NCBI RefSeq assembly: GCF_000421825.1
Contig: NZ_ATXT01000019.1
Span: forward strand, 62,001 to 126,000
Origin: Humibacter albus DSM 18994
GTDB taxonomy: Bacteria; Actinomycetota; Actinomycetes; Actinomycetales; Microbacteriaceae
Direction of reading: 5' to 3'
DNA: 64,000 nt
The number at the start of each line of letters is the position of its first letter. Position 1 is the first letter of the stretch. Under the pieces are notes generated by a model. That model saw only the letters and a program-made list of their open reading frames with translations, was not told the DNA's origin and made no database searches. Made by a program: the position numbers and the translations under genes. Positions 5,024 to 27,088 of the stretch are shown piece by piece.

Positions 5024-5814
5024 TCGTCCTCGTCCTGGTTGCGCATGGCGCCCTCGTAGCCGTGGCCGTGGAAGAAGTCGCCCGACTCGTACCGCAGCAG
5101 GGTCGGCACGGCTCGTTCCCGCGCCGGAGCCACCCAGTCGACGCCGTTCGCGATCACGCGGCGAACATCCTTGTGGTGATACACCGGAAAGTCCTGATCG
5201 CCCGGGCTGAAGTAGAAGATCTTGCCGTTGCCGCGCCGGTACGTGATGCCGCTGCGGAAGACCTCACCACCGGAGAACGAGCTGATGAACACGATCTCGT
5301 CCGGCCGCGGAACATCGAACTGCTCCCCGTACATCTCCTGCTGCGGAATCTCGATCGGATGCGGAACACCCTGAGCGATCGGATGCGTCGGGTCGACGGT
5401 CCAAACGAGCTCGCGATCGTGCTCGCTGCGCCACCGCAGCGTGCACGTGGTTCCCATCAGCTTCTGGAAGATCTTCGACCAATGCCCGGAATGCAGGACC
5501 ACCAGGCCCATGCCCGACAGCACGTGTCGATGCACCCGCTCCACGACCTCGTCGGACACCTCACCATGCGCCGCGTGCCCCCACCAGGTCAGCACATCGG
5601 TTTGCGCCAGCCGCTCCTCGGTGAGGCCGTGCTCCGGCTCATCCAGCAGCGCCGTGCTCACGACCACCCGGTCGCCGAGGTTCTCCTCGATACCCGACTT
5701 GATCGCGTTATGCATGCCCTCCGGGTAGATCTCGGCCACGTGCGGTTCCACCTGCTCGTGCCGGTTCTCCCCCCAGACGACGACCCGCAATGGGCGGTCA
5801 GTAGTGGCTGTCAT
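5020..5814 (-). CDS. ThuA-like domain protein (sugar utilisation)
   Basis: 264 residues with a glutamine-amidotransferase-like ThuA fold. The N-terminus [12 protein letters not shown] and the segments [24 protein letters not shown] and [13 protein letters not shown] are typical of the trehalose-utilisation family. In rhizobia, ThuA with ThuB (a Gfo/Idh enzyme) converts disaccharides to 3-keto derivatives; a similar role here is inferred from the coupled Gfo/Idh gene. A strong AAGGAG lies before the ATG, and 24 bp separate it from the upstream permease stop. Confidence 0.9.
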
Positions 5815-20698: not shown

Positions 20699-20978
20699 GG
20701 ATGCCGCCACCTCAGCGCCCGAGCCCCTCGCGTTCATGATGACCAGGCTATGCGTCCTGGACTCGCGGCGCTCCTCCCCGTGACACGCGATGCTCGTGCC
20801 ACAAGGGCCAAGGGGCCAGCGACCAACGCCCAGCGATCAGCGGCAGGAGAGCGACTGCACGAAGAACGTAGGCTGGCGGGTGACGCGCGCAGGGCGTCGT
20901 CCACGCGGCTCATCCTGAGACCGTGGTCCGAGGAACTCGCGGGTGGTTCGACGCGCGACGCCGACCCGGCCGACGCGC

Positions 20979-21025
20979 CGAACCGGCGCGCTGAGTCGAA
21001 CCGGCGCACTGAGTCGAACCAGCGG
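20979..21025 (+). repeat. 18-bp tandem repeat, 2.6 copies
   Basis: CGAACCGGCGC[G/A]CTGAGT is repeated at 20979-20996 and 20997-21014, with a partial third copy to 21025, directly before the ribosome site of the next gene. The 340-bp gap between the UvrA-like and ThuA-like genes otherwise holds one isolated unit resembling the 19-bp repeat of the downstream arrays (GGGTGGTTCGACGCG at 20941) and no gene. Confidence 0.65.
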
Positions 21026-21040
21026 ACCACAAGGAGCAGC

Positions 21041-21757
21041 ATGAGCGCGAACATCCTCGTCGTGTCGGGCAGCGGCCGATATGCCGACCCGTGGCATCCG
21101 CTCGCCGAGACCTCAGCGCGCACGGCCTCGCTACTGCGCGATGCCGGGCATAGCGTGACCGTGGACGACGACGTGGATGCCCGCCTCGCCTCCCTCGCGT
21201 ATGCCGACGACGTCGACCTGCTCGTGCTCAACGTCGGCGCGGGCCGCACGCCCGAGGAGCGTTCGGTGGTGCAGAGTTCGGACGACCGTGAGACCCTGCC
21301 CCTTTCTGAGGCGGATGCGGCGACGCGCGCCGGTCTGCTCGCCCACGTCGAGCGCGGACGCCCCGTGCTCGCGTTGCACGTCTCGTCGACGAGCTTCGGC
21401 TTCCTGCCCGAATGGGAGTCGGTGCTGGGCGGCATCTGGGTGCGCGGTACGTCGATGCATCCGCCGTACTCGCGCGCGCACATCTCGGTGGCGACCGATG
21501 CGCACCCGGTTGTCGCGGCCATCCGGGATTTCGACACCGACGACGAGCGCTACTCGCTGTTACGCGTCTCGCCGCGTGCCCGGCAGCTGGCGTGGCACGA
21601 CCTCGACGGCGAGCGCCAGCCTGTGCTCTGGACGCACGAGTACGGCGCTGCGCGGATCGTCTACGACGCGCTCGGCCACGACGAGGCGTCGTACGACGCG
21701 TCCGAGGCGCGCGCGATCATCGCCCAGGCGGCCGGTTGGCTGCTCCGCGAGCGGTAG
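21041..21757 (+). CDS. ThuA-like domain protein
   Basis: 238 residues, shorter and divergent from the ThuA protein at 5020. NILVVSGSGRYADPWHPLAETS opens a class-I-glutaminase-like fold, VDLLVLNVGAG and GRPVLALHVSSTSFGFLPEWESVLGG follow, and PPYSRAHISV and PVLWTHEYGAARIVYDALGHDEASYD are typical of the ThuA family C-terminus. Probably a cytosolic protein of sugar metabolism; no substrate can be assigned. AAGGAG is placed 5 nt before the ATG. It stands alone and ends convergently with the next gene, with repeat element A between them. Confidence 0.85.
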   Translation: MSANILVVSGSGRYADPWHPLAETSARTASLLRDAGHSVTVDDDVDARLASLAYADDVDLLVLNVGAGRTPEERSVVQSSDDRETLPLSEADAATRAGLLAHVERGRPVLALHVSSTSFGFLPEWESVLGGIWVRGTSMHPPYSRAHISVATDAHPVVAAIRDFDTDDERYSLLRVSPRARQLAWHDLDGERQPVLWTHEYGAARIVYDALGHDEASYDASEARAIIAQAAGWLLRER

Positions 21758-21851
21758 TCCCACCGGGTCGCACCCGCCCCGGGGCGGCCCGTCCCATGGG
21801 CCGCCCGCGCCACGGCCCCGCGCGACCGCCCGCTCCCGCGGCCGCGCCGAC

Positions 21852-22015
21852 GTCGAGCCCGCACATCGTCGCCGAGCCACCCGTCTCTTTGCGCGAATAG
21901 AGGGGTGGTTCGACAACAAGCGGGTGGTTCGACAACACGCGGGTGGCGCGACAACAAGCGGGTGGCGCGACAACAAGCGGGTCGCTCGACAACAAGCGGA
22001 TGACTCGACAGCCGC
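21852..22015. repeat. 19-bp-unit palindromic repeat element, copy A
   Basis: Two 19-bp units in inverted orientation start at 21852 and 21871 (GTCGAGCCC..., GCCGAGCCACCC...). A 20-nt core containing TTTGCGCGAATAGAG follows. Then come five direct 19-bp units GGGTGGTTCGACAACAAGC starting at 21903, 21922, 21941, 21960 and 21979, and one degenerate unit to 22015. The last inverted unit and the first direct unit start exactly 32 bp apart, as in copies B and C. Copy A fills the gap between two convergent genes. Confidence 0.85.
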
Positions 22016-22045
22016 AGGGCCCGGCGTCTGTGCGGCAGGACGTCC

Positions 22046-22924
22046 CTACTTGCCTGGCGCGCCGGAACTGAGCGACCGCAGGTACGGTTCCAGGTGCCGC
22101 TCGCCGAACTGCTCCCCGACCGCATCGACCTGCAGTGACTCGATGAAGAAGCGGGTCAGGTTGCCCAGCCGCGGCGATCCGCGTTCGGCAACCCATTCCA
22201 GCGAGCGCCCGACCCGTTCGTTGACCCTGAGGATGCGTGGCGTGCGGCCCGCGATGCGGAACGCGAGCTCTTCGATCTCGCGGTAGGTGAAGACATCCGG
22301 CCCGCCCACGTTCCAGCTGCCGGCCGGTCCCGTGAGGTGGTCGACGATGAACGTGGCGAGGTCGGCCCCGTGGATCGGGTTGAGCCTCGTTGCACCGTCG
22401 CCCATCGTGAACCCCATGCCGCGCTGCGCCATGCGAAGAAAATCGGACATGTCGGAGAAGTACCCCGACGGGTTGATGATCTGCGGTGCAACCCGACTGC
22501 GAGCCAGTGCTTGTGAGAACGCGAACTTCGACCGCATCGTCAGTGACGTTCCGGTCTCCGAGTGCAGCACGTTGACGTAGACGAAGGATGCCAGCTCGTG
22601 CTTCTCCGCATCCGCCAGCACGGCGAGATTGCCCAGGAAGTCGATGTTCCAGGGGCTCGCCTTCTGACGGGTGACGCCCAACGCAGAGACCACGCGATCG
22701 GCACCCTCGCAGATGTCCGTCAGCGTCTCCGGTTCGGCGTAGTCGACGGTGCGCCACTCCGCGACGTGTCCGCGCAACGCCGGAGCACCGAACGCGCCAG
22801 GCTGCTCCGCGCGCTCGCGTGACCTCACCAGCGCTCGCACCCTGAACCCCCGGGCGTCGAGGGACTCGACCACGTGACGGCCGACGTACCCCGTTGCTCC
22901 GGCGACCACGACCAACTCGCCCAT
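22046..22924 (-). CDS. NAD(P)-binding NmrA/SDR-like protein
   Basis: 292 residues, atypical short-chain dehydrogenase fold. The N-terminus GELVVVAGATGYVGRHVVESL carries the GxxGxxG dinucleotide motif, followed by FRVRALVRSR. NPSGYFSDMSDFLRMA occupies the usual YxxxK region but no catalytic Tyr-x3-Lys is visible, as in NmrA-like redox sensors. IHGADLATFIVDHL and GPDVFTYREIEELAFRIAG match NAD-dependent epimerase/NmrA proteins. GGAGG lies 5 nt before the ATG. Divergent from the TetR gene across a 61-bp region holding a perfect palindrome, so it is likely that regulator's target. Confidence 0.85.
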   Translation of the reverse strand: MGELVVVAGATGYVGRHVVESLDARGFRVRALVRSRERAEQPGAFGAPALRGHVAEWRTVDYAEPETLTDICEGADRVVSALGVTRQKASPWNIDFLGNLAVLADAEKHELASFVYVNVLHSETGTSLTMRSKFAFSQALARSRVAPQIINPSGYFSDMSDFLRMAQRGMGFTMGDGATRLNPIHGADLATFIVDHLTGPAGSWNVGGPDVFTYREIEELAFRIAGRTPRILRVNERVGRSLEWVAERGSPRLGNLTRFFIESLQVDAVGEQFGERHLEPYLRSLSSGAPGK

Positions 22925-22956
22925 ACCGACCTCCACCTCTGTACGGAAAGCGTTCT

Positions 22957-22972
22957 TGTACCGCGCGGTACA
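22957..22972. promoter_or_regulatory. TetR-type operator, perfect 16-bp palindrome
   Basis: TGTACCGCGCGGTACA is fully symmetric and lies midway in the 61-bp region between the divergent NmrA-like and TetR genes. This is the standard position for a TetR-family operator controlling both. Confidence 0.75.
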
Positions 22973-22985
22973 GGAATAGCCTAGA

Positions 22986-23822
22986 GTGGATGCCGTGCCT
23001 CGTCCACCCCGTCCCCTCGCTCCGGTTGCCGCGAAGAAGCTCCGGCTCGTTGCGGCGGCCGCCTTCGGCGCGGATGGCCTGGACGGGGCGTCACTGAACG
23101 ACATCCTGAAGCGGTGCGGCATGGGGAAAGGCTCGTTCTATCACCGCTTCGCCGATAAAGCGGCACTGCACGATTGGGTGGTGCGCACCCTCGCCGACGA
23201 CATGGTCGACTCGCTTCAGCCGCCGGATCTTCGGATGCTGACCGCGGCATCCTTCCGCCCCGCGCTGACGGCGATGCTCGGTCGCGCCACCGCGCTTGCA
23301 GCGGAGCGCCCCGAGCTGATGAACCTCGGACTCATGTTCCACAACTCGGCGACCGCCCCGGCCGATCGCGCGATCTCCGGGGTGCGCGCTGCTGTGCTGA
23401 ACTGGATCGGCGAAGCGCTGATGAGAGGCCGCGCGCTCGGCGTCATACGGTCCGACCTGCCCGCCGACCTCCTGTCGGCCTGGGCGATCGCGTCGCTGAC
23501 GACGATCGACGAATGGGTGCTCAACGCGCCCACCGCGTCGGGCCACGACGAAACCGGGTCGAAGGCCGCGTCGGCCCACGACGAAGCCGGGCCGAAGGTC
23601 CGGCCGGCGGGTGCCGAACCGACCGGCGCAAAACCGAGCGGTGCCGAGCCCCAGGCTGCGGGGGCGCCACCGACCAATGGCGACTCGAAGGCGCTGGCGG
23701 CGGCCCCAGCCAGCGGCGACTCGCGGGCGGTGGCGGCGACTCTTGCGCTCGACGCGCTCTGGACCCTGCTCGCACCCACCTCTTCCGCTTCCGCCTCCTC
23801 GCGGCCCTCGGCGGCTTCTTAG
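22986..23822 (+). CDS. TetR-family transcriptional regulator with a repetitive insertion
   Basis: 278 residues. The N-terminal HTH ASLNDILKRCGMGKGSFYHRF is typical. The ligand-binding half is normal to about residue 182, where a stretch of about 65 residues rich in Gly, Ala, Pro and Glu is inserted with imperfect repeats (GHDETGSKAAS/AHDEAGPK, GAEPTGAKPSGAEP, NGDSKALAAAPASGDSRAVAA), before a final helix ALDALWTLLAP. Most TetR proteins are about 190-220 residues. The GTG start at 22986 has no obvious ribosome site, and a GTG at 22995 is an alternative. Expected to bind the palindrome at 22957 and repress its divergent neighbour. Confidence 0.88.
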   Translation: MDAVPRPPRPLAPVAAKKLRLVAAAAFGADGLDGASLNDILKRCGMGKGSFYHRFADKAALHDWVVRTLADDMVDSLQPPDLRMLTAASFRPALTAMLGRATALAAERPELMNLGLMFHNSATAPADRAISGVRAAVLNWIGEALMRGRALGVIRSDLPADLLSAWAIASLTTIDEWVLNAPTASGHDETGSKAASAHDEAGPKVRPAGAEPTGAKPSGAEPQAAGAPPTNGDSKALAAAPASGDSRAVAATLALDALWTLLAPTSSASASSRPSAAS

Positions 23823-23860
23823 TGGTCCCCGGCGCGCCGCGCCGCCGCGCGCGTCGAACT

Positions 23861-23987
23861 GCCGAGCCCGCACATTGTTGCCGAGCCACCCGCCTCTTTG
23901 CGCAAATAAAGGGGTGGCCCGACAACATCCGGGTGGCCCGATAACGTGCAGGTGGCCCGGCGGCATCCGGCGGCCCCGCAACAGGCG
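23861..23987. repeat. 19-bp-unit palindromic repeat element, copy B
   Basis: Inverted units start at 23861 and 23880. The core contains TTTGCGCAAATAAAG. Direct units start at 23912 (GGGTGGCCCGACAACATCC), 23931, 23950 and 23969, increasingly degenerate. The stretch 23861-23917 is nearly identical to copy A, with the same 32-bp spacing across the core. It lies in the 306-bp gap after the TetR gene; the remaining 140 bp before the next start codon hold no other feature I can name. Confidence 0.82.
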
Positions 23988-24128
23988 GAGCGCTCGCCAG
24001 GATCCGCGGTCCTCGACGACGAGCGGAGCGCCCGACTCCGCAGGCTCGGCTCACGACTGTTCCCCCACAGGCGTGAGCTCTCCACAGATCCCGCCCCGGC
24101 ACGTTCGCGTCGCTCTGAAGCGCCGACG

Positions 24129-25124
24129 ATGGAGGTCATGCGGCACGCCATCACGATTCCGGAAGCGCGGGCGCTCCTTCGATCGCGACAGGACCTGTTC
24201 GTCGGCGGGATGTCCGATCGCGTGATTTCGCGCGCGGTCGCCACTGGCATCCTGCACCGTGTTCGACGAGGCTGGTTCGTGCCCCGTGCCGAATGGGAAA
24301 ATCTGTGGTCAGAGGGTAGACATCTCGTCCACATCGTCGCCGTCTTCCGGGATGCCCGTGGCTCGAACGCCGTGTTCGCGGGTCTTTCCGCTGCGGTTCT
24401 GCACGGACTTCCTCTCTACGGGCTGAGCCCGACGCGCGTCGAGTTGCTTGTCGCGAACCCTCACCACATCCACAGCTCGCCTGACGTGCTGCGGCGTGAA
24501 GGAGTCCTTCCCGACTCCGACACGACACTCATCGAGGGGATGCGCGTCACCTCAATGGAGCGAACCGTCGCCGATGTGTTGCGCACCACCTCGCTCGAGG
24601 CGGCGGTGGCCATCGCGGATGCGTCGTTGCGCCGGGTCGCCGTGCGGCGAAACACTCAGAACGACGATCTCGCCGACGCCTGGCGGGAACGCATGACCCG
24701 GCAACTGCATGCCGTCCGAGGGCAGCGAGGGGTTCGCCAGGCGAGCTGGGTGCTCTGCTTCGCCGACGGTCGTGCGCAATTGCCGGGCGAGAGCGTCAGC
24801 CGCGTTCAGTTTCACCGGCTCGGCGTGCGAAACCTCGGACTGCAGGTGCGCGTACCGGCCCCGCGCGGCGGAAGCTATTGGCTCGATTTTGACCTGAAGG
24901 ACTTCAACGCCTTCGGCGAGTTCGACGGCGAGCGCAAATACACGGACGAAGAGCTGCGCTCGGATCGGAGCATCCAGAAGGTGATCCTGGACGAGAAGTA
25001 TCGCGAGGACTGGATCCGCGGCATCACCGGCCGACCACTGTACCGATGGGGAGACAAGCACATCGACTCTGCCGACACGCTCGGTCACCGCCTTCGCGCG
25101 TTCGGCCTCGCTCTTCCCCTTTGA
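24129..25124 (+). CDS. AbiEi-like antitoxin domain fused to a Vsr/PD-(D/E)xK-like domain
   Basis: 331 residues. The N-terminal part resembles the winged-helix AbiEi type IV antitoxin domain (ITIPEARALLRSRQDLFVGGMSDRVISRAVATGILHRVRRGWFVP). The middle has GLPLYGLSPTRVELLV and TSMERTVADVLRTTSLEAAVAIADASL, usual in this family. From about residue 215, GESVSRVQFHRLGV, YWLDFDL and FGEFDGERKY give a Glu-Asp-Glu-x-Asp-Gly-x-x-Lys pattern seen in Vsr/DUF559-type nuclease folds; activity is unproven. No AbiEii toxin partner is adjacent. Start ATG 24129 or 24138. Lower-GC codon choices than its neighbours in places hint at acquisition. Repeat copies B and C flank it. Confidence 0.8.
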   Translation: MEVMRHAITIPEARALLRSRQDLFVGGMSDRVISRAVATGILHRVRRGWFVPRAEWENLWSEGRHLVHIVAVFRDARGSNAVFAGLSAAVLHGLPLYGLSPTRVELLVANPHHIHSSPDVLRREGVLPDSDTTLIEGMRVTSMERTVADVLRTTSLEAAVAIADASLRRVAVRRNTQNDDLADAWRERMTRQLHAVRGQRGVRQASWVLCFADGRAQLPGESVSRVQFHRLGVRNLGLQVRVPAPRGGSYWLDFDLKDFNAFGEFDGERKYTDEELRSDRSIQKVILDEKYREDWIRGITGRPLYRWGDKHIDSADTLGHRLRAFGLALPL

Positions 25125-25240
25125 CTGAGGTACGCCTGCGTCGACGGATGCCGTGCCTCTCCCGCGCGGTCCCGCCCCGGTTCCAGCGCCGCCGCGTCCT
25201 CACCGCGACGATCCACTCGAGGCCGTGGGGTCTCCGCAAC

Positions 25241-25348
25241 GTCGAGCCACCCGCTTATTGCCGAGCCACCCCTTTGTTTGCGCGAATTGAGGGGTGGTTC
25301 GACGACAAACGGGTGGCTCGACGCCAAACGGGTGGCTCGACGCCAACG
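25241..25348. repeat. 19-bp-unit palindromic repeat element, copy C
   Basis: Inverted units start at 25241 (GTCGAGCCACCC) and 25260 (GCCGAGCCACCC). The core contains TTTGCGCGAATTGAG. Direct units start at 25292, 25311 and 25330 (GGGTGGCTCGACGCCAAAC). Spacing across the core is again 32 bp. It sits in the 303-bp gap between two convergent genes; the rest of that gap shows nothing else. Confidence 0.82.
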
Positions 25349-25427
25349 ACCCCGGAAGCCACCCCACCACAGCCACACTCCGCGGCCGAAAGCCCGCCGG
25401 CTCTACCCGCGGGCGGAGTGCCCTGCG

Positions 25428-26180
25428 CTACGCCGCCGCCGCGGACTCCTCCTCCAGCGCCCGGTGGAAGGAGTACTGCGCGTTCGCGAACACCGCATAG
25501 AGAAGGATGCCCGGCACGAGCGCCGCACCCAGCACCGGCTGCAGGAGCACCGCCGCCGCGATCAGCCCGACCATGACGAGCGCGACCACACTGAAGTACC
25601 AGCGGCGCACCACCAAGTACACGGCCGCCTTCGCTATCGCCCGCAACGACGCGGTCGGGAAGACCACCAGACCGACCACGGTGAAGAGCGCGGCCACCAC
25701 TGAACCGATGCCGAGCACCGCCAGCAACGGCCCGAGCAGCGGCGCCCACACGGTGCCCGCCATCACCGTGGCATCGAACAGGGCCAGGCCGACCATCACC
25801 GCTGTCGCGGCGCCAACCACGAAGGCCGCGCCTCCGCGACGGCGATACCCCGACCAGAACGCGGCGAACGGGCGCGCTCGCCCCTCGGCGCGCATCGCTC
25901 GGAACACTTCGAACGCGCCGGCGAGTGACGGCGCGAGCGTCAGCGAAAGCAGCAGGAAGAACGGCCAGGATGCTAGCGGGTCGACGGTCACGAACAGTGC
26001 GGCCGCGAGCGGTGCGTTGAACGCCACGAGCAGCAGGTCGACCATGAGCAGTGCATAGGCGTAGCCGAAGATGGTCTCCATCGTCTCGTTCCGAAGCCGG
26101 AAGAGACCCTGCCGCGGCTTCGCGTCTGCGGCGCGCGCTGGCCGGCCGTCGGTCCCGCGCGTCGGAGCCGTGGCGGTCAT
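25428..26180 (-). CDS. DUF624 (YesL-like) membrane protein
   Basis: 250 residues with about five hydrophobic segments: TIFGYAYALLMVDLLLVAFN, WPFFLLLSLTLAPSLAGAF, AAFVVGAATAVMVGLALF, LLGPLLAVLGIGSVVAALF and VVALVMVGLIAAAVLLQPVLG. YesL-type proteins are encoded with polysaccharide ABC importers in Bacillus rhamnogalacturonan loci and in many actinobacteria; their function is unknown. The start overlaps the stop of the upstream permease by 4 nt, so it is the last gene of the importer operon 29434-25428. Confidence 0.85.
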   Translation of the reverse strand: MTATAPTRGTDGRPARAADAKPRQGLFRLRNETMETIFGYAYALLMVDLLLVAFNAPLAAALFVTVDPLASWPFFLLLSLTLAPSLAGAFEVFRAMRAEGRARPFAAFWSGYRRRGGAAFVVGAATAVMVGLALFDATVMAGTVWAPLLGPLLAVLGIGSVVAALFTVVGLVVFPTASLRAIAKAAVYLVVRRWYFSVVALVMVGLIAAAVLLQPVLGAALVPGILLYAVFANAQYSFHRALEEESAAAA

Positions 26181-27088
26181 CCCTTCATTCCGCTCGTCGC
26201 GATGCCGCTGATGAAGTAGCGCTGCCCCGCCAGGAAGATGACCAGAATCGGGACGATCGAGATCACGGATCCGGCCATGATCATGGCGTACTGGGCGGAG
26301 TACTGGCCGATGAACGACCTCAGTCCGATCTGCACGGTCCACAGCTCGTTGCTGGAGAGGTAGATGAACGGGCCCATGTAGTCGTTCCACGTGTTCACGA
26401 ACGTGAGCAGGGCGAGCGACGCGAGCGCCGGCTTCGACAGCGGCAGGATGATGCGGGCCCAGATGCCGTAGTCGCTGAGGCCGTCGATGCGGGCGGCCTC
26501 GTTGAGCTCATCGGGAATGGTCATGTAGTACTGCCGCATCAGGAACACGCCGAAAGCACCGAATGCCTGCAGCAGGATGAGCGCGAGGAACGTGTTCGTG
26601 AGCCCCGCCTTCTGCATCATCATGTACTGCGGGATCATGTAGGCCTGCCACGGCACCGCGATGGTCGCGATGTAGGTGAGGAACAGGGCATCCCTCCCCG
26701 GGAAGCGCACCTTCGAGAATCCGTACGCGGCGAAGCTGCCGGTGAGCACCTGAAGGAACGTGATCACGACCGCCAGAATGGCGGAGTTCATCAGGTAGCC
26801 GGCCATCGGGACCTGCGTCCAGATGTTCTGGTAGTTGCTCCAGACGAACTCTCTCGGAATCCACTGGATCGGCACCGTGAGCACCTGGTTGTCATGCTTG
26901 AACGACGACGACAGCATCCAGATGAACGGCAGCAACACCACGGCCAGAAGCACGACCAGCAGCACGTACATCGCGGCCTTGCCGAGACGGGAACGGATGC
27001 GGCGCTGCCCGCGCCGCTGCGGACGGGACGACGGATGCGTGCGCCCGGTCTCGAGCTCCTGCGCGAGATCCGAGGTCAGGGTGGACAT
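26177..27088 (-). CDS. carbohydrate ABC transporter permease, MalG type
   Basis: 303 residues. A 40-residue basic N-terminus precedes TM1 AAMYVLLVVLLAVVLLPFIW. IPREFVWSNYQNIW and the EAA loop NEAARIDGLSDYGIWARIILP are present, and the C-terminus RYFISGIATSGMKG is the family end. The ATG at 27088 overlaps the upstream stop by 1 nt (TGATG), with GGAGG before it. Forms the channel with its upstream partner. Confidence 0.93.
   Translation of the reverse strand: MSTLTSDLAQELETGRTHPSSRPQRRGQRRIRSRLGKAAMYVLLVVLLAVVLLPFIWMLSSSFKHDNQVLTVPIQWIPREFVWSNYQNIWTQVPMAGYLMNSAILAVVITFLQVLTGSFAAYGFSKVRFPGRDALFLTYIATIAVPWQAYMIPQYMMMQKAGLTNTFLALILLQAFGAFGVFLMRQYYMTIPDELNEAARIDGLSDYGIWARIILPLSKPALASLALLTFVNTWNDYMGPFIYLSSNELWTVQIGLRSFIGQYSAQYAMIMAGSVISIVPILVIFLAGQRYFISGIATSGMKG

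Follow-up and report, generated by a model that had tools for sequence, protein, structure and literature searches.

The window analysed here, a stretch of 64,000 nt from Humibacter albus DSM 18994 (contig NZ_ATXT01000019.1, positions 62,001 to 126,000), contains three arrays of 19-bp units, A, B and C, and, between B and C, a gene that joins an AbiEi-like region to a DUF559/MTES_1575-like nuclease region. A, B and C are copies of a palindromic element resembling the repetitive extragenic palindromes (REPs) that is spread through the genome. In window coordinates the features are as follows:

21854..22015, +, element A: two left units (the outer one of a second type), 40-bp palindrome core at 21873-21912, six right half-units, the last degenerate; a ThuA-like gene (+) on its left and an NmrA-like gene (-) on its right converge on it
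23863..23987, +, element B: two left units, core at 23882-23921, four degrading right half-units; 3' of a TetR gene and 5' of the nuclease-like gene
24129..25124, +, AbiEi-like + DUF559/MTES_1575-like nuclease gene of 331 aa between B and C
25243..25348, +, element C: two left units, core at 25262-25301, three right half-units; downstream of the nuclease-like gene, which here converges with a DUF624-like gene

The three arrays, first described in a first-pass annotation of the letters, are real: direct reading of the sequence agrees with a repeat finder, which grouped the copies at 21854, 23863 and 25243 in one 108-nt family and gave self-matches shifted by 19 bp. Left arms (CGAGCC...; CGAGCCxxxx) start at 21854 and 21873 in A, 23863 and 23882 in B, and 25243 and 25262 in C. 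Right arms (GGGTGG...; GGGTGGxTCG) start at 21903, 21922, 21941, 21960, 21979 and, degenerate, 21998 in A, at 23912, 23931, 23950 and 23969 in B, where they degrade, and at 25292, 25311 and 25330 in C. The unit period is 19 bp on both sides of every array, and the first right arm starts 30 bp after the last left arm does, which leaves 20 nt between the two; the constant distance of 32 bp reported earlier is the same quantity with the unit taken to begin at GYCGAGCC. The right-side copy numbers (five plus one degenerate, four degrading, three) were also as reported. Each array has the two inverted units ascribed to it, with the refinement that the outer one in A and B is of a second type (CGAGCCCGCA) found again at other sites. 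Inner arms and core together make up a 40-bp palindrome: CGAGCCACCC, n5, a TTYGCGCRAA-like core, n5, GGGTGGYYCG. The annotation had recognized no insertion sequence (IS), CRISPR or tRNA pattern; consistently, no Rfam matches at the gathering score were found in the window and no Y1 transposase in the genome.

A search of the genome and its relatives with a profile of the element had been proposed, and it yielded many further copies. In the own genome (G000; G001 to G004 are four other genomes of the genus, and L-numbers denote loci) a blast-type search gave 21 matches, an exact pattern four sites and a double-unit pattern with up to three mismatches 36 matches, with no match for the reversed pattern in either of the two latter cases. 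A covariance model built on 25 aligned copies (20 from the own genome, 5 from G003 and G004), with which 150 of 3102 first-look candidates were scored, produced 48 strand-wise matches, that is, 24 distinct sites in the 3.69-Mb genome, separated by a gap (E 4e-9 against E 0.2 for the next candidate). Four of the 24 sites are independent finds; the other 20 were in the model. With 150 candidates scored per genome and rough E-values, the counts in the genus were 24 in the own genome, 18 in G004, 7 in G003, 1 (weak) in G002 and 0 in G001. Across the Microbacteriaceae, where 15 candidates per genome were scored and the numbers are lower bounds, at least 11 of 299 genomes had a match, at least 7 of these in three other genera. 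Humibacter sp. RRB41 was the one organism that a strict pattern picked out of 84,980 species records (the own genome was possibly not included), and the viral contigs searched contained neither a match to this pattern nor a relative of the window protein. By eye, palindromes of similar plan and different arm sequences were seen in three other genera (L135-L145; g100, g51, g15), several of them beginning within ∼40 nt after an apparent stop codon.

Comparison of the copies reduces the arrays to a basic element of ∼78-82 bp with a 19 + 40 + 19 plan: a 40-bp palindrome, CGAGCCACCC-n5-TTCRCGYGAA-n5-GGGTGGCTCG, and one 19-bp unit on each side. The arrays are this basic element with extra half-units added. 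The outer unit in the own genome is either of the second type or made of additional inner half-units, of which L054 has seven or more on its left; such long one-sided arrays, with no partners opposite, do not qualify as arms of a hairpin. The typical G004 element is a palindrome of 82 bp, in some cases 83 bp: a 26-bp arm GTCGACCCGGCACTGTATTGCCGAGC and its inverted counterpart enclose ATTCACGTGAAT, which is set off from each of them by a 9-bp spacer. This plan was read from 14 of the 18 copies, the other four being off register after centring and left out. Arms and core are conserved there, while the spacers vary freely at constant length and show no pairing beyond chance overall. The arm sequences are species-specific. 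Copying of the element, or its maintenance as a structure, is supported by the genome-wide copies of constant architecture, by retention at some orthologous places and by the fixed spacing around freely varying spacers in G004.

Several familiar explanations of such a palindrome were considered and set aside. The palindromic register is 76.6% paired compared with 32-47% in slid registers; yet the spacers are unpaired and covariation is barely above that of shuffled alignments (18 of 500 shuffles reach the score), so a DNA recognition site fits better than an RNA hairpin as the selected form. A classical miniature inverted-repeat transposable element with a parent IS seems unlikely, since the G004 arm pattern has 30 matches, every one at 16 of the 18 elements, which leaves no classical IS parent in that genome. 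The motif TTCACGTGAA resembles what we take to be the centre of parS; however, many copies carry TTCGCGCGAA instead, and G001 has no copy at all.

That B and C enclose a nuclease-like gene had escaped the first-pass annotation. This gene has flanks that are 79% similar to each other over 67 bp. The N-terminal region of its product is AbiEi-like (PADLOC E 3e-10; 2.5e-15 for the G004 orthologue), and an alignment of 14 sequences reveals in the C-terminal region the conserved DUF559/MTES_1575 nuclease pattern, with E221, R225, D253 and G267 invariant and E264 and D266 nearly so. Profile matches in PDB were 3hrl (E 4e-5), PvuRts1I (E 0.006) and the mobile intron protein 3r3p (E 0.49). We take 3r3p to be the Vsr-like homing enzyme I-Bth0305I, and the nuclease region is presumably akin to Vsr. 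The Pfam models DUF559 or MTES_1575 were matched by 6 of 10 relatives at E<=0.01 (2 of the 10 exceeding the curated cut-off), and a search of NCBIfam gave no match. On its conserved acidic residues and the profile match we place the protein among the PD-(D/E)XK / DUF559 nucleases; judged by these features, it is likely to be a DNA-cutting protein.

The surrounding locus could be followed in four genomes of the genus. In the window the neighbouring genes are:

21041..21757, +, ThuA-like gene left of A; start approximate, taken from a longer open frame (the Pfam ThuA match belongs to the G004 orthologue)
22046..22924, -, NAD(P)H-binding/NmrA-like gene between A and B; absent here in G004
22986..23822, +, TetR regulator gene between A and B; absent here in G004
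25428..26390, -, DUF624-like gene on the right of C; its Pfam match (E 9e-5, 23 bits) is below the cut-off of 24.2

The order ThuA-A-NmrA-TetR-B-gene-C-DUF624 of the own genome corresponds to ThuA-NmrA-TetR-DUF624 with no element in G001 and to the same four genes with one element at the position of A in G003; at the TetR|DUF624 junction both genomes lack the nuclease-like gene, B and C. In G004 the order is ThuA-element-gene-element-DUF624, without NmrA and TetR, an arrangement that recombination between A and B would leave. It follows from the four-genome comparison that the gene between B and C comes and goes together with its two elements. Other bracketed genes behave otherwise: G001 has the permease that two elements enclose on C17 but has no elements there, and a 124-aa gene enclosed by two elements in G004 occurs in G000, G001 and G003 with no element of the window family beside it. 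Bracketing therefore does not generally make a gene mobile, and we rejected a gene cassette carried by an element pair as the general rule.

Related genes elsewhere in the actinobacteria were collected by tblastn in a plasmid collection that includes chromosome-like records (Tsukamurella, Arthrobacter, Nonomuraea, Collinsella), and all 11 distinct places were examined; a second gene from the genus, L173, was met beside lpdA in G004, and a third, L120, turned up in the control scan itself. By a preset test (300-bp flanks, E<=1e-3, >=30 bp) similar sequence was present on both sides of 13 of 15 such genes versus 3 of 260 others (Fisher 9e-18), the matches at L185 and L186 being short (31 bp); without the three genes to which elements or the flank scan had led, the figure is 10 of 12. 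The controls comprised other called Humibacter genes (3 of 242 positive) and annotated neighbours long enough to test (0 of 18). Two of the three control positives lie between elements of the window family; for one control positive, L118, we have no explanation. A fresh sample of 40 stretches of 20 kb at preset positions in nine genomes, 8 of them from G004, chosen as already known to be rich in such genes, held two further genes, L215 and L211, both from G004. A looser test with 450-bp flanks reaching 120 bp into the 3' end and a stricter E<=1e-6, adopted after these two had failed the preset one and been inspected, found 15 of 17 genes from five genera bracketed versus 4 of 551 controls (Fisher 4e-24); L215 and L188 pass it, while L211 and L184 fail. 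Two of the four control positives are neighbouring paralogues in L226 (9111-12293, G021), adjacent genes for closely similar ∼500-aa proteins whose starts look like signal sequences; their flanks match over 237 bp at 95% identity.

The bracketing repeats differ from gene to gene. Of 13 flank pairs, 10 have at least one flank that is more self-complementary than any of its 50 shuffles (the exceptions are L180, L185 and L186), and G004 alone has at least four such genes, each with a different repeat (L113, L120, L173, L215). The second AbiEi-nuclease-like gene, at L173:3720-5020 (G004, C8) between lpdA and a biotin carboxylase gene, has near-identical ∼66-bp palindromes of another family on both sides; at the same junction in G002 and G003 the palindrome-gene-palindrome unit is absent and the housekeeping genes are adjacent. 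A further copy of the L173-type palindrome was seen in L112 near 5184-5241. At L183 in Collinsella aerofaciens (1216-1532 and 2616-2760) arrays of TGTTACAGATCGAGAC-type palindromic units flank the nuclease-like gene. Left of the gene at L186 (1700-1880, Arthrobacter sp. ERGS1:01) tandem half-units precede the palindrome, laid out like the arrays A-C and different in sequence. At L211:16191-17440 (G004, C1), a distant member of the nuclease family, the 3' end of the gene overlaps a degenerate copy of its 5'-side palindrome (70% over 64 bp). Of five flanking repeats tested, four were found again in other parts of their genomes, at 2 to at least 14 further places: at least 7 for L179 (19 places in 8 Tsukamurella records before strand correction), at least 8 for L181 (12 places before correction, in 9 Tsukamurella records), at least 14 for L187 (30, in 2 Arthrobacter records) and 2 for L182 (4 in 2 records). 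These counts are given as lower bounds because palindromic queries match both strands; double counting was evident at L179, whose two flanks gave four matches.

We consider it somewhat better than an even bet (probability about 0.53) that palindromes and genes form a system like the REPtrons, in which a protein of the AbiEi-DUF559-like nuclease family would be the likely mobilizer. The targets of AbiEi and of its mycobacterial relative Rv2827c are inverted repeats of 23 bp, of which there are four in the Rv2827c promoter (PMC7319586). The element described here presents four units of 19-bp period in two inverted pairs, and the AbiEi-like region may bind its half-units. The DUF559-like region would then cut or nick the DNA, either within the palindrome or close to it, and further intergenic copies of the palindrome, occasionally together with the gene, would be made by repair or strand transfer. 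On this view the whole palindrome-gene-palindrome unit would be autonomous and a palindrome standing alone a non-autonomous copy, as in a REPtron with a nuclease in place of the HUH enzyme. Tandem half-units probably arose by slippage or unequal recombination.

A number of observations weigh against this interpretation. Binding and cleavage by the nuclease and movement of the palindromes are steps that we infer, and the intergenic DNA of the relatives has diverged too far for a target-site duplication or an exact empty site to be read. The window protein on its own matches no Pfam nuclease model, and among 10 relatives only two DUF559 matches are above the curated cut-off. Both freshly sampled genes, L215 and L211, failed the preset test; of the 17 genes, L184 (Nonomuraea) and L211 (a weak match, E 1.8e-4) also failed the looser one. 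The 15 places of the Collinsella repeat at L183 may largely be the flanking arrays themselves. Finally, the nuclease type of the window was seen only in G000 and G004, and G003 has seven elements with no such gene seen in its fetched stretches, which implies that elements can persist or spread without a gene nearby.

It is unlikely, in our estimate, that the palindromes are instead bidirectional transcription terminators, or 3'-end RNA elements made homogeneous in sequence, near which nuclease genes merely happen to be located. Of 50 sites, 15 are between convergent genes, 27 between tandem and 6 between divergent ones (2, inside doubtful gene calls, were set aside); the element-free gaps >40 bp numbered 28, 69 and 47, respectively. 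Divergent gaps are under-represented among sites (6/48 versus 47/144, P 0.008), while enrichment of convergent gaps is not significant (15/48 versus 28/144, P 0.11); these counts are approximate, as the home-made gene caller erred at the neighbours of A and C and called an antisense frame in L126. In the six convergent G004 calls each of the two stop codons is 20-60 nt away from the element, and two convergent junctions occupied by the element in G000 or G004 carry in G001, by eye, an unrelated long palindrome, near-perfect and of ∼50 and 64 bp (L170:5681-5841 and L175:3636-3737). Against terminators, some copies lie between divergent genes, L112 and L097 with starts that are likely genuine and face each other, and a scan of 20900-26400, limited to terminators of the T-tract type, found no such site at A, B or C and a single one at 25977-25964, away from the elements. 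Unpaired spacers and weak covariation speak against an RNA element, and the occurrence of the same repeat on both sides of nuclease genes is left unexplained. In the REPtron-like interpretation copies at 3' ends may serve as bidirectional terminators, a role that may be secondary.

Homing, by which the palindromes would have come first as common intergenic sites, with an endonuclease cutting solitary ones and repair inserting its gene between two copies, appears to us improbable to about the same degree. The profile does touch the mobile intron protein 3r3p, and the genes are single, several of them between housekeeping genes; yet a homing gene normally splits its site into halves, whereas here there are whole or near-whole copies on both sides, and species-specific palindrome families would still require a spreading agent. 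We would give still less credence to operator sites bound by an AbiEi-like repressor, with the scattered copies forming its regulon. AbiEi proteins do autoregulate via inverted repeats (PMC7319586); however, a regulon does not fit the scarcity of copies between divergent genes or the copy 3' of the gene, and it leaves the nuclease region without a role. Least credible is a site for a nucleoid or segregation protein, with the nuclease association secondary. The fixed spacing around the TTCRCGYGAA core would suit such a site; G001, however, lives without a copy, unrelated repeats bracket similar genes elsewhere, and sites are clustered rather than spread. There were 6 gaps <8.5 kb in the own genome versus 1.2 expected (0.1% of simulations) and 3 versus 0.7 in G004 (2.5%), with a threshold picked after the sites were seen and a simulation that ignores contig ends and coding DNA. 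Sites at the same place in two or three species were L096/L115/L128, L110/L129, L097/L125 and the window cluster.

The REPtron-like system that we favour shares with REPs and REPtrons (RAYT/TnpA-REP) palindromes that are scattered between genes, mostly 3' of them, and that fall into species-specific families (PMC3733652, PMC8266576), as well as an enzyme gene flanked by repeat copies, here B and C around 24129-25124. In REPtrons, as described in these papers, an HUH enzyme is flanked by the REPs that it processes (PMC8266576, PMC3733652). The elements found here differ in length (∼78-82 bp versus 20-40 bp for the REPs of PMC3733652), and no GTAG or unpaired CGTC tag was recognized by eye in the 25 aligned copies. 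The associated gene is AbiEi-DUF559-like, and a RAYT as mobilizer was rejected: the own genome (99% complete) has no match to PF01797, the Y1/HUH transposase model, which did find control matches in 5 of 14 genomes. As neither a RAYT nor the tag was found, we place the system with the REP/REPtron kind by its possible workings, not as a member. REPs with a CGTC tag are likewise palindromes apparently without a dedicated transposase (PMC3733652); they are reported in Proteobacteria, Chlorobi, Bacteroidetes, Spirochaetes and Thermotogae in a paper whose main text does not contain the word Actinobacteria (PMC3733652). Where CGTC occurs at an element end here, it pairs with GACG, unlike the tag.

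Type IV toxin-antitoxin systems of the AbiE kind share the AbiEi-like region, and AbiEi proteins, Rv2827c included, bind paired inverted repeats (PMC7319586). They differ in that here the nuclease-like region is fused, the repeats stand on both sides of the gene and genome-wide, and no toxin gene adjoins: a Pfam scan of the neighbours for a nucleotidyltransferase toxin (DUF1814) gave TetR and the DUF624-like protein. To Vsr-like and PD-(D/E)XK homing endonucleases the likeness consists in the nuclease region, by weak profile match, and in a single gene that comes and goes; here, however, the gene is free-standing, intergenic and flanked by whole palindromes. ERIC, BOX and Correia elements are also short intergenic palindromic or modular repeats with variable numbers of internal units; we know of no sequence relationship between them and the window family.

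Genes annotated as DUF559 or 'AbiEi family antitoxin domain-containing' are common in actinobacteria and are usually read as hypothetical proteins or orphan antitoxins. In distant actinobacteria most of the related genes have their own repeats on both sides, which points to self-spreading bacterial DNA of a kind that has drawn little notice and of which the window family would be one case within a wider and apparently undescribed association of palindromes with AbiEi-DUF559-like genes; no description of it was found among the top-ranked, mostly non-subscription papers, which is weak evidence of novelty. We offer tentatively, at a little short of even odds, the broader proposition that AbiEi-DUF559-like proteins mobilize a class of palindromic repeats throughout Actinomycetota, each recognizing and dispersing its own repeat of ∼50-150 bp and occasionally its gene, with several separate pairs in one genome and, in place of the REPtron enzyme, a nuclease that has another fold. 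If true, this would give these genes a role and explain one source of scattered palindromes in these genomes, and the same kind of enzyme might account for REP families without a known transposase, such as the CGTC REPs. The system would then be a nuclease-based counterpart to the RAYT/REP system.

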